From Lachnospiraceae bacterium (GTDB lineage: Bacteria; Bacillota; Clostridia; Lachnospirales; Lachnospiraceae), in contig JAGBHK010000007.1 of NCBI GenBank assembly GCA_017935565.1, forward strand, positions 29,503 through 93,502: DNA of 64,000 nucleotides, in the 5' to 3' direction. A program made the translations under genes and the position numbers. Shown one piece after another: positions 58,458 through 64,000 of this stretch. The notes under the pieces are model-generated. The model was given only the letters and a program-made list of their open reading frames with translations, was not told the DNA's origin and made no database searches. Every line of letters starts with the position of its first letter. Within the stretch, counting starts at the first letter, position 1.

Positions 58458-59309
58458 TTAAATTGTCCCTGTAACTGTCAGTACACTTACACCCGGCTCA
58501 ACAACCCACTCGCCTGTTGTAGCATCCTGTGTGTAAGTCGCTGCTGGCACTGTAATCTGTCCTGGAACTGTTGCAAACAAGCCTGTAGTTTCATTGTAGG
58601 TATAGTTTGTAGGTTCCGTCCATGTTGTACCATTGTAAGTTACAACGATATCACTAAGAATTGGGGTAAATGTGTCAGTTACCGTAGCATTGTCAGCTGC
58701 GACCACTGGTGCATTTCCTGTGTTCTGTATTGTAAATGTGTAGGTTATTCTTCCGTTCTCTGCAACTGTTGTTGGAGAAACCGCCTTTGTAATAGACAAT
58801 CTTGCACCAGCCTGAGCAGAAACTGTTTCTGATACAGTGATGTCGGTAATGCCTTCTCCACTAATCACAGCTGTATTTGTAATCTCACCTTCCAAACTCA
58901 TCGGTGCAAATTCATTTGCAGTTACTGCATATGCTATAGTTGCTTCTCCACCTGCCGGAACAGTAATTCCACTTATAATAAGTGGTGCGCCCACTGAAAC
59001 TGCCGGTGCAGGTTGTAACACGCCATCCACAAAATACTTCACACTTCCGTCCACATAATCAAGTGGTACCAACTGTTCTGTACCAAAATCATACTCACCT
59101 AAATCATCCGTAATTGTAATGCCCGTATAGGCAGTTGTGCCTGCATTTACAATGTTTATTATATAGGTTATCTGAGAGCCTGTAGTGTAAGTGTCTACTA
59201 CTGCCGTTTTTGACGCCGATAGTACCTCAACTATTTCACCCGTTGTAATATTTGAATTTACGACGTTTCCATTATATCTTAACGTAGCCTGGTTTGTAAA
59301 AATTGCCAT
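58458..59309 (-). CDS. DUF11-type repeat protein without signal peptide or anchor
   Basis: 283 residues, rich in Thr, Val, Ala, Gly with almost no Cys, Trp or Lys-rich parts. Two DUF11-like beta modules: SQITYIINIVNAGTTAYTGI with TITDDLGEYDFG, and GRITYTFTIQNTGNAPVVAA with ATVTDTFTPIL. The N-terminus MAIFTNQATLRYNGN starts straight in the beta domain, without export signal, and there is no LPXTG or membrane segment. AGGAGG is seven bases before ATG 59309. Such signal-less DUF11 proteins recur in Clostridia, as far as I recall, without known function. Monocistronic. Confidence 0.82.
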   Translation of the reverse strand: MAIFTNQATLRYNGNVVNSNITTGEIVEVLSASKTAVVDTYTTGSQITYIINIVNAGTTAYTGITITDDLGEYDFGTEQLVPLDYVDGSVKYFVDGVLQPAPAVSVGAPLIISGITVPAGGEATIAYAVTANEFAPMSLEGEITNTAVISGEGITDITVSETVSAQAGARLSITKAVSPTTVAENGRITYTFTIQNTGNAPVVAADNATVTDTFTPILSDIVVTYNGTTWTEPTNYTYNETTGLFATVPGQITVPAATYTQDATTGEWVVEPGVSVLTVTGTI

Positions 59310-59417: not shown

Positions 59418-60227
59418 TTAATTTAGTTCAACAGTAGTTATCTTCAGTATCCCATTTTCTTCTTTTCTAAAAAAATATATTCTCATTCTAGATTTAGACG
59501 TATCAATCAATTTTTCCTCTATCAAATCATAACCTTTCTCAAGATAGGATTTTAGAATATCTTTTTTAAATTCAATTCCTCTTGATTCAATTTTTATTAC
59601 TTTTTCAGGTACATTTACAAATTTGCGTAATTTTTGATTAAATGCCAGTTCTATAGCTCCGACATCACCCCTATAATTTTTTGCAACAATTATTTCGGTT
59701 ATACCTTTACACTCTGTAGTTTTGTTATAAAATTCATCTCGATATAAGAATATTACTATGTCTAAATCCTGCTCTATAGCTCCAATACATCTTAAATCTT
59801 GCAATATAGGTCGGTAGTCGTCACTGTTTCTAACTACTTTTGGAAGTTGCGAAAATACAATTATAGGTATGGATAATTCCAATGCTAGTTTTTTTAATTT
59901 TTGCGTAATACTTGACGTTCTCGATTGTGCTGTCTCAAAGCCTTCATCCCATAATAATTGCAGATAATCTATAATGATTAATCCAATTTTGTCTGATTTT
60001 TTATGAGCTCTACTTTTGATTATTAAATCATCAATTGAAATTGATTCTTCCAAGCTAAAAAATAGTGTTGGGATTTTTTGATGTTCTACCACATTTTGAG
60101 CAATATTTAGAGCAAATGTGCTCTTCCCTGTACATGGGCGCCCTCCAACAAATATTAATTCAGACTCGCGCAAGCCCTTTAACAAATAATCTAAATCCCT
60201 AAATCCTGTCAATATGATATTTTTCAT
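59418..60227 (-). CDS. DnaB-like (RecA-fold) ATPase, shortened
   Basis: 269 residues. Resembles the C-terminal motor of replicative helicase DnaB: Walker A GGRPCTGKSTFALNIAQN (about 28-45), LFFSLEES, Walker B LIIIDYLQLL (about 83-92), the sensor IIVFSQLPK, LRCIGAIEQDLDIVIFLYRDE with the arginine finger region. The DnaB N-terminal domain is absent, and the roughly 80 residues that normally separate SLE from Walker B are reduced to about 20. A unique C-terminal 70 residues follows. GAGG precedes ATG 60227. No phage genes surround it; it may be a KaiC/RadA-like regulator or a degraded helicase. Confidence 0.82.
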   Translation of the reverse strand: MKNIILTGFRDLDYLLKGLRESELIFVGGRPCTGKSTFALNIAQNVVEHQKIPTLFFSLEESISIDDLIIKSRAHKKSDKIGLIIIDYLQLLWDEGFETAQSRTSSITQKLKKLALELSIPIIVFSQLPKVVRNSDDYRPILQDLRCIGAIEQDLDIVIFLYRDEFYNKTTECKGITEIIVAKNYRGDVGAIELAFNQKLRKFVNVPEKVIKIESRGIEFKKDILKSYLEKGYDLIEEKLIDTSKSRMRIYFFRKEENGILKITTVELN

Positions 60228-60542: not shown

Positions 60543-61448
60543 TTAAATATACCTCATTCCCAAATCATTCAATTCATCTATTAATTTGGGGTTATTTAAC
60601 TTTCTAGCCAATGGCATATACAAATCAATAGTTTCCTTTGCTTTTTCTCGCCTTTTTGATTCATCCATAAACTCTACAGTTCTCATATTATGGAGCCTTT
60701 CAGCTAACTTTATTAAAACAACTTCATCTGCTGCCTCGTTTAATGTATTATCCGTATTATTAACCGCTTGTACTATATCATATGTTTCTTTAAATAATGA
60801 ATTATTCAATTCTGTTAATGGAATAACACCTTTTTTGCTTACATCACAAAACATTCCAGCCAAAATTACATTTTCCTCTGCACCCAACTCTGTCAACAAA
60901 ATAGCAACATTGAGCAAATGTGTAATATATTCTTCGCCAGAATATCTATTCACACCTTTGTAGGCTTCACAAGCTATTTTGTATGTAGCTTGCAATTTCT
61001 CCTCATTTACTTCAATTCCATTTTCTTTTATCTTGCATTGCAACAATTCAAACAACTTTTCCTTTGTCTCTCCAATGTTTGTAGAACCTAAAAAAACATG
61101 ACTCATACCACTACCTCCTAATATTTCAATAGAAACTTTCATTGCTTTTAGAAGTGATGGTGCAAAATCAAATTCTTTTACAAATGCCTTGGTAAAGCCG
61201 CTATGAGACTGCCAGCCATATTTAAATGCTACATCTATTATCTTTTCGCCTAATAAAATATCCTCCGACGCTTTAATAAGTCTGCGTTTAATTATGTATT
61301 CCGTGACAGTTACATTCATATTTGCTTTAAACATTCGCATAAAATGATACTCTGAATATCCTGCTATTTGGGATAATTGCAAAGTTGTAAGTTGCTCTTC
61401 CAAATGCTCTTCAATATATTTAAGTACCTGATTTATATTCGATTTCAT
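60543..61448 (-). CDS. AraC-type DNA-binding domain fused to degenerate RelA/SpoT HD domain
   Basis: 301 residues. Residues 1-105 are a complete AraC DNA-binding unit with two helix-turn-helix motifs (LTTLQLSQIAGYSEYHFMRM; IIDVAFKYGWQSHSGFTKAF). After a linker, residues 155-300 follow the (p)ppGpp hydrolase HD domain: GVNRYSGEEYITHLL, LAGMFCDVSKKG, VLIKLAERLHNMRTVEF and TIDLYMPLARKL. Of the Rel metal/catalytic set, the first His (177), Asp202 and Asn254 are kept, but HD is CD (Cys201), the Glu-Asp pair is Lys-Lys (205-206) and the later Asp is Glu250. A catalytically dead, nucleotide-sensing regulator is a fair hypothesis. GAGG precedes ATG 61448; last of a three-gene operon. Confidence 0.88.
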   Translation of the reverse strand: MKSNINQVLKYIEEHLEEQLTTLQLSQIAGYSEYHFMRMFKANMNVTVTEYIIKRRLIKASEDILLGEKIIDVAFKYGWQSHSGFTKAFVKEFDFAPSLLKAMKVSIEILGGSGMSHVFLGSTNIGETKEKLFELLQCKIKENGIEVNEEKLQATYKIACEAYKGVNRYSGEEYITHLLNVAILLTELGAEENVILAGMFCDVSKKGVIPLTELNNSLFKETYDIVQAVNNTDNTLNEAADEVVLIKLAERLHNMRTVEFMDESKRREKAKETIDLYMPLARKLNNPKLIDELNDLGMRYI

Positions 61449-61517
61449 GACCTCACCTCTTTTTATTTGGTAGTTTTATTATAAGTCATGTTTTTATGTA
61501 TTTCTTTTCCTAGATTG

Positions 61518-62078
61518 CTATTTCATAAAATATCCAACAATCAACAATATAATAACCACAACAATAGTTAGAATTTTCTTAATATCCATGCCATTTGCAA
61601 GTGGATTAGAATTTTCAGTAGGTGCAGGTTGTGCTGGTGCTACTGGTTCTGGCTCTGGTGCCTCTTCCTTCTTTACCGTGCTGCCCTTCATTTTATTTAG
61701 CATTTCCTCTTGCATTGCTTCCATTCGCTTTTTGTATTCTGGATCATCATTGATGGATTGTAAATGGAATGCCTCGATTTCAACACCCACTTGTATCGTT
61801 TTCTCTTTAATGTATTTCTCTGCTTCATCTCCACACATAGGCCATTGTACCCTTGGCACTTTGGAAAGTACATCGGAAAAATAATTCATAAAAGATAATT
61901 CAACCAATTTTTTCACCTTTTCATCGGTTTCTATGGAAGCATTTACACCATTAAATATTCCTTCGTCTGCAATATTATATACAAATGAAACATTTGCTTT
62001 TACTGCTTGGTCAATAGTCATTGTCGAACCATTATTAAAAGATACTGCGTTGATTCCCATTCTTAATTCTTTGCTCAT
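61518..62078 (-). CDS. Tail-anchored protein with SPFH-like domain
   Basis: 186 residues. An alpha/beta domain (about 1-125) with MTIDQAVKANVSFVYNIADE and a long helix (YIKEKTIQVGVEIEAFHLQS) resembles the second half of an SPFH/band-7 domain; the match is by pattern only. A Pro/Ala/Glu linker (EAPEPEPVAPAQPAP) and one C-terminal membrane helix (about 164-183) follow, so it is tail-anchored facing the cytosol. AGAAAGGA precedes ATG 62078. It stands between a DUF4304-like gene and AraC-HD gene in one operon. Function unknown. Confidence 0.7.
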   Translation of the reverse strand: MSKELRMGINAVSFNNGSTMTIDQAVKANVSFVYNIADEGIFNGVNASIETDEKVKKLVELSFMNYFSDVLSKVPRVQWPMCGDEAEKYIKEKTIQVGVEIEAFHLQSINDDPEYKKRMEAMQEEMLNKMKGSTVKKEEAPEPEPVAPAQPAPTENSNPLANGMDIKKILTIVVVIILLIVGYFMK

Positions 62079-63910: not shown

Positions 63911-64000
63911 ATGAGATACTCTTATGAGTTTAAAAAAGAATGTGTTCAACTATATCGAGAAGGGAAATGGCCTGAAACACCACCCGGAGTTAAGGAACAC
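63911..64000 (+). CDS. Transposase, N-terminus only (truncated by window)
   Basis: Thirty codons are visible from ATG 63911, eight bases after AAGGAGGG. The start MRYSYEFKKECVQLYREGK, followed by WPETPPGVKEH, matches the first helix of helix-turn-helix transposase subunits (IS3-type OrfA or similar). Nothing more can be said about catalytic residues. Confidence 0.75.
   Translation, partial: MRYSYEFKKECVQLYREGKWPETPPGVKEH

Follow-up and report, generated by a model that had tools for sequence, protein, structure and literature searches.

The question raised by this locus is what a gene does that joins an AraC-type DNA-binding domain to an HD domain of the RelA/SpoT type, and whether it makes one protein or two. 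The gene lies on the minus strand of the window, which here means the whole stretch of 64,000 nucleotides that was analysed; a plus-strand reading of 60543-61448 was discarded, being interrupted by stops throughout. We favour a TipA-like one-component regulator, in which a full-length protein would be accompanied by a free, non-hydrolysing HD domain that binds a nucleotide, and we give this reading a probability of about 0.5. The gene, its domains and the elements around its first start are located as follows.

60543-61448, minus strand: full-length AraC-HD gene, 301 amino acids and a stop, supported by relatives
61134-61448, minus strand: AraC-type DNA-binding domain, residues 1-105, with two helix-turn-helix motifs (Pfam HTH_18 and HTH_AraC; fold match)
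61095-61121, minus strand: linker, residues 110-118, pLDDT below 50 in the model
60546-61070, minus strand: Rel/SpoT-type HD fold, residues 127-301
61451-61459, minus strand: ribosome-binding site of the full-length protein, GAGGTGAGG, a 5/6 match to AGGAGG at spacing 7
61446-61490, minus strand: inverted repeat CATGAC...GTCATG, -9.3 kcal/mol, folding z-score -0.99

The first-pass annotation had described residues 1-105 as a full AraC unit with two helix-turn-helix motifs, and Pfam and the fold matches agree with it; the N-terminal part has the roughly 100 residues and the two motifs of an AraC/XylS domain, and its matches in the structure comparison are 3oio, AdpA, MarA and STM3175. The annotation had also read residues 155-300 as following the Rel hydrolases, and the comparison of predicted structures that it had called for returns a Rel-type HD fold, which starts at residues 122-130 in most Rel rows and is matched by the HD_4 profile as well. 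The protein ends with this domain at residue 301 and has no synthetase, TGS or ACT domain, which sets it apart from the long RSH proteins; the spoT_relA profile scores 86.3 bits against a cut-off of 499.2. Between the two domains, residues 110-118 are probably disordered according to the model. A scan for sigma-70 promoters returned a single site, within the gene, which is fewer than in shuffled sequences. The inverted repeat spans the first ribosome-binding site and the start of the gene and could be a hairpin masking the full-length start, or an operator, a weak lead only.

The fusion is real and belongs to a conserved family. Fusion genes were gathered from several genera, 40 in number, which rules out a chance fusion or an assembly join and answers the first-pass annotation's call for a profile search for other AraC-HD fusions. 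Of the 397 genomes searched in the window's bacterial family, 22, counting the one from which the window comes, have a match to the protein at E <=1e-28. Twenty matches span almost the whole protein (one of them, L042, with an internal stop), while L051 runs off its contig (residues 6-255) and L052 ends early (residues 8-169). At the level of the class, 2 of 291 genomes matched at 1e-32, both in the window's bacterial family, and at the level of the phylum only the window's own genome among 299; for the order (392 genomes), nine of the listed matches extend across the AraC part and beyond, and all nine fall in that bacterial family, with one AraC-only match outside it. In these searches scoring was confined to a few top candidates from each genome. 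In one genus the gene is present in 17 of 24 genomes. Loci L133-L135, L137 and L139-L141 were excluded from the counts, as L133-L135 and L137 repeat places already in the set, L139 and L140 correspond to L177 and L175, and L141 repeats L052.

A scan of genome contigs with the protein matched 599 stretches; the best 80 of them were matched by the HD part, with query residues from 42 or later and mostly from 110, and no AraC-HD fusion was apparent among these 80 listed matches. The Rel hits tentatively suggest that the genomes with the fusion are kin to Lachnospiraceae. Among 50,697 phage and 72,556 plasmid records, none had a single place covering 80% of the protein. An unverified phage contig from human faeces (MT839143.1, L268) carries at 9-317, its extreme edge, a 53% match to HD residues 156-266, and this contig may be bacterial DNA. 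No neighbour gene is common to more than 4 of 21 AraC-HD loci; an operon partner was discarded as a candidate, since no gene cluster beyond the fusion itself recurs in more than 4 of those 21 neighbourhoods.

The linker of the gene also carries what appears to be a ribosome-binding site followed by a start, a conserved element of the domain junction that the first-pass annotation had missed.

61114-61119, minus strand: candidate internal Shine-Dalgarno sequence AGGAGG, in codons Leu110-Gly111-Gly112, read from the sequence
61104-61106, minus strand: internal in-frame ATG, Met115, 7 bases past AGGAGG, read from the sequence
60543-61106, minus strand: predicted second product, the HD domain alone, 187 amino acids, the frame covering the whole Rel-like fold

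The AGGAGG-7-ATG element (61119-61104) sits within the linker predicted to be disordered, so placed that a second in-frame start with a ribosome-binding site precedes the ligand domain, as in a TipA-like gene. Open frames of at least 200 codons on either strand of the window, which are not all genes, contain 395 ATGs, and Met115 alone among these has AGGAGG 5-9 bases upstream. Eight AGGAGG-N5-9-ATG sites occur in the window: five are first starts, one lies two codons past a first start, one is in a frame leaving the window end and one is the Met115 site. The internal start does not stand out for an open RNA structure (z 0.86).

Across the family, a junction ATG is preceded by all six bases of AGGAGG in 18 of the 40 genes and by five in 16, so that 34 of 40 have at least five; 3 genes (L046, L047 and L176) have four of the bases and 3 have three. 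Among the other internal methionines of these genes (n=265), none has six bases and 6% have five or more. Codon choice was followed in a set of 17 genes that was chosen after the motif had been seen and left out L046, L047 and L051 of the same tree branch; L036, a near copy of L002, was dropped from all codon tests. Met115 is kept in 17/17 of this set and the Gly111 codon is GGA in 17/17, which has the smallest p among the 78 codon columns that could be tested, with a chance of about 10^-7.5 from each gene's codon use. When the three omitted genes are restored, GGA is found in 19/19 genes that have Gly there (P 3e-9), L046 being without it. The base before the Gly111 codon is A in 16/17, across Leu, Ile, Gln and Gly codons. 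In a second branch, whose genes are close kin, GGA is used in 18/19 (P 3e-6); the signal there is weaker, with AAAGGAGA at other spacings, and L164-L166 are without the junction ATG. Only the joint tests are strong, and they treat related genes as independent; single-gene tests with synonymous codons gave p from 0.014 to 0.57 in the 40 genes, since a Gly-Gly pair by itself fixes a large part of the motif. The codon choice at Gly111 points to selection on the RNA, which would explain why Gly-Gly and Met are held in a disordered linker, and from these patterns we consider it quite probable that the gene gives two products.

The best surviving alternative is that the gene makes one protein only, and that the internal AGGAGG-ATG is either a relic of the fusion of two adjacent in-frame genes or a pause signal for domain folding. 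Pausing at internal sites that resemble Shine-Dalgarno sequences has been proposed, the element lies exactly at the domain border, and the three members without the ATG also speak for a single product. A pause, however, needs neither an ATG nor a fixed spacing, yet both the ATG and spacing 7 accompany AGGAGG in 17 of the 18 genes of the first set. Nor would a relic be expected to keep the Gly111 codon and the base before it at protein identities that drop to 0.36-0.76 (median pairwise identity 0.45 in the tested 17-gene set). The AraC part is present in all 22 matches (E <=1e-28, 397 genomes, five candidates per genome scored), and thus a close HD homologue standing on its own was not seen within those five candidates per genome. 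We regard a single product as unlikely.

The same signal was sought in other regulators of this kind. The controls were 40 AraC genes from related genomes, drawn from a list of matches, several per genome in some cases, in which the DNA-binding domain comes first and another domain is C-terminal; seven AraC genes with fewer than 100 amino acids after the domain were left out. In a preliminary group of 7 control genes, 1 had all six bases. A junction Met is present in 33/40 controls and the internal start signal in 26/40, and at least five of the six bases precede 26 of 44 junction Mets versus 5 of 233 other Mets (Fisher 5e-20). A phylum-wide set of AraC-GyrI genes (n=29, all those passing 1e-40 in 149 genomes, three of them sharing one genome) has the internal start in 27/29; by methionine, five or six bases stand before 27/46 at the junction versus 10/143 elsewhere. 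When these AraC genes are pooled, G-x-x-x-M occurs at the junction in 51/69. The Gly codon is GGA in 41/51 (33% expected, P 6e-13), the next codon begins with G in 48/51 (Gly 31, Asp 6, Val 5, Ala 4, Glu 2; P 2e-20) and a preceding Lys codon is AAA in 28/35 (P 0.03), P values that all ignore shared ancestry. Two further genes (L025 and L180) fuse AraC to a kinase-like domain and have AGGAGG before an ATG at the junction, the kinase-like domain carrying an HRDPNPSN motif of the APH type; in L197 a short domain that by eye resembles glyoxalases comes after the AraC domain, and an in-frame ATG at the junction has AGGAGG ten bases ahead of it.

The internal start is a stronger and broader result than the idea of an alarmone sensor. 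The phylum's AraC-first regulators might even form a large, unrecognised two-product class with a start at the junction, whatever the sensor (GyrI-like, kinase-like, glyoxalase-like or pseudo-HD), with the window gene as its case of a dead alarmone hydrolase and the first receptor of the AraC type known to us that would respond to an alarmone or another purine nucleotide; we put this forward tentatively, at somewhat under even odds.

The HD domain itself departs from the hydrolases at several of the residues on which they depend. Rel numbering is used beside that of the window protein.

60945-60947, minus strand: Arg168 (Rel R44, guanine contact), 38/38
60918-60920, minus strand: His177 (Rel H53, metal ligand), 38/38
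60843-60848, minus strand: Cys201-Asp202 replacing His-Asp (Rel H77-D78); position 77 is H in 20, C in 16, W in 1 and S in 1
60831-60836, minus strand: Lys205-Lys206 replacing the catalytic Glu81-Asp82; Lys at the second position in 20/38
60699-60701, minus strand: Glu250 replacing the metal ligand Asp144; D in 20, E in 15, G in 2 and Q in 1
60687-60689, minus strand: Asn254 (Rel N148, guanine contact), 38/38

These counts come from 38 genes, since two of the 40, L042 with one stop and L052 with a short frame, lack the HD motif in the frame read and were left out. The pair Glu81-Asp82 is incomplete in 38/38 members, with Asp82 lost in 38/38 and Glu81 kept in 7/38. All four Rel metal ligands (H53, H77, D78 and D144) are kept in 20/38 and read H, C, D and E in the window protein, which has neither the ligand set nor the catalytic pair of a (p)ppGpp hydrolase. 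In the Rel HD domains of related genomes, H53, H77, D78, E81, D82, D144, R44 and N148 are intact in 18/18. Of the changes listed by the first-pass annotation, the loss of the Glu-Asp pair thus extends to every member, while Cys201 and Glu250 turn out to be only one of several states in the family; of the residues it had reported as remaining, Arg168, His177 and Asn254 are kept in 38/38.

Positions 77 and 144 co-vary (H-D 20, C-E 15, C-Q 1, W-G 1, S-G 1; n=38), and the metal pattern is broken in L037, L043 and L045, which have W-G, S-G and C-Q. The co-variation could reflect a re-tuned metal site in which the two positions are still metal partners. A tree of 56 HD domains places the 18 Rel sequences on one side of a branch (100/100), and a single origin of the fusion HD domains is therefore possible; the inner order of the fusion domains is unsure, and long branches meet.

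The base pocket is kept throughout. R44, S46 and N148 are present in 38/38 and T151 in 37/37 with a letter there, so that the guanine pocket appears complete in the residues present, and L037 and L043 keep all four despite the loss of the 77/144 pair; Rel K45 is Tyr in 24/38. In the structure of RelSeq with pppGpp, guanine is held by the main chain of Lys45, Ser46 and Thr151 together with Asn148 and Arg44, R44 and N148 contacting the base through their side chains, and manganese is held by H53, H77 and D144 (PMC13299517). The letters at S46 and T151 are only indirect evidence, because their base contacts, in that account, are made by the main chain (PMC13299517).

The control for decay of the pocket is E. 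coli RelA, aligned with the family at 14 positions, where it reads H P D A L R F P D A E R H E; other letters stand at R44, S46, N148 and T151. Its hydrolase domain is dead. It resembles the AraC-HD proteins in having an HD domain without hydrolysis and Glu at 144, and differs from them in that the guanine pocket is also lost. In the AraC-HD family the catalytic pair is lost and the pocket residues are kept, so binding kept and cutting lost fits the sequences, and the domain looks like a binding site from which the cutting tool has been removed. The first-pass annotation's proposal of binding without hydrolysis is borne out in part, namely in the incomplete pair of 38/38 members and the retained R44, S46, N148 and T151, which are features of sequence.

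From this pattern we lean towards an HD domain that binds a purine nucleotide. (p)ppGpp is the natural first guess, and the idea of an alarmone sensor is plausible and better supported now; that (p)ppGpp itself is the ligand is possible, and we hold it with some doubt. Lys206 falls at Rel position 82, where 20/38 members have Lys and which we take to be the counterpart of Asp66 in MESH1. NADPH is a rival ligand, as proteins of related fold act on it and human MESH1 D66K, a catalytically inactive variant, was crystallised together with it (PMC9894426).

Three other functions were weighed against nucleotide binding. The HD domain might be a metal or redox sensor, in which His53, Cys201, Asp202 and Glu250 bind zinc or iron, or in which the cysteine of the window branch is oxidised; His, Cys, Asp and Glu are all possible metal ligands, and positions 77 and 144 do change together. 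That change, however, largely tracks two branches of the tree, so that it represents few events, and R44, S46, N148 and T151, which a metal site does not need, are kept even where the metal pattern of L037 and L043 is broken. We judge this function unlikely as well, and have rated it slightly lower because E. coli RelA, with its dead HD domain, likewise has Glu at 144. A module for dimerisation or packing that binds no ligand would agree with the loss of the catalytic pair, and dead HD domains can persist for structure, as in E. coli RelA, but the base-pocket residues are selectively retained against a background of about 45% identity, whereas the RelA domain has lost them, and such a module seems improbable. 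An active hydrolase with other chemistry, that is, a DNA-binding enzyme, is very improbable, since Asp82 is absent in 38/38 and K206 resembles the inactive MESH1 D66K, provided that the two positions correspond, even if 20/38 keep H53, H77, D78 and D144 and 7/38 keep Glu81.

In the TipA-like regulator that we prefer, a flexible linker would tether the AraC DNA-binding domain to an HD domain of the Rel type, which would have lost hydrolysis and would still grip a purine nucleotide. The full-length protein would sense the nucleotide and act at promoters. Translation from the linker ATG, behind its own ribosome-binding site, would yield a second protein of 187 amino acids that consists of the HD domain only. 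Since this short form has the same pocket, it might act as a buffer for the ligand, or associate with the full-length protein and tune its response.

The closest known arrangement is that of TipAL and TipAS, which one Streptomyces lividans gene produces from two start codons (PMC7762955). A full DNA-binding regulator and a free C-terminal ligand domain, shown for TipA in that account, are predicted here by analogy; TipA, as described there, is of the MerR type with the antibiotic-binding TipAS domain, whereas the present protein combines an AraC-type domain with a Rel-type HD domain. No sign of TipA descent was found, neither a MerR nor a TipAS domain being in the Pfam listing at E 1. The AraC-GyrI regulators (E. 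coli Rob and Salmonella STM3175/YgiV) likewise have an N-terminal AraC domain and a C-terminal ligand domain, which is GyrI-like instead of HD, and the solved structures related to the AraC part include both STM3175 and Rob. For STM3175, the ligand domain alone gave drug resistance and the full-length protein apparently more, and the main text describes variants without the DNA-binding domain and makes no mention of an internal start, an isoform or a truncated form (PMC10414762).

Among the HD proteins, SpoT (7qpr) and Rel (6s2t) share with the AraC-HD protein the HD_4 fold and R44, S46, H53, N148 and T151; they differ in the Glu81-Asp82 pair, incomplete in 38/38 AraC-HD members, in the His-Asp motif, which has become Cys-Asp in the window protein and 15 other members, and in the synthetase, TGS and ACT domains that the fusion lacks. 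MESH1 and the small alarmone hydrolases stand alone in their genes and are active enzymes with an intact Glu-Asp pair; the predicted short product would resemble them as a lone HD domain of 187 amino acids, and the dead HD domain of MESH1 D66K, crystallised with NADPH, offers a further likeness. The first-pass annotation knew of no described regulator of this design, and none combining AraC with a pseudo-HD domain was found in the full texts of open-licence PMC papers. If the preferred reading is true, evolution has made a Rel-type hydrolase into a transcription switch that senses a nucleotide directly, and a stress nucleotide would reach promoters by a route separate from RNA polymerase and GTP pools. 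By the AGGAGG-7-ATG rule, many regulator genes that annotation would list with one product are expected to give a second protein from the junction, and sensor domains made separately would alter the modelling of such switches.

Some observations concern the genes around the AraC-HD gene. Directly upstream on the same strand, 61518-62078 (minus strand) encodes a 186-aa protein with a hydrophobic C-terminal end and a weak Band_7/SPFH match that lies under the curated cut-off. The short gene at 59418-60227 (269 aa) has only a DnaB_C (RecA-like) domain, matched in two pieces, and its product is perhaps a shortened helicase-like ATPase. At 58458-59309 a 283-aa protein with DUF11 matches is encoded, and a perfect AGGAGG lies 7 bases ahead of its start. 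At 63911-64000, AGGAGG stands nine bases before an ATG that lies 26 codons into an open stretch leaving the window end, and this site is probably a gene start.
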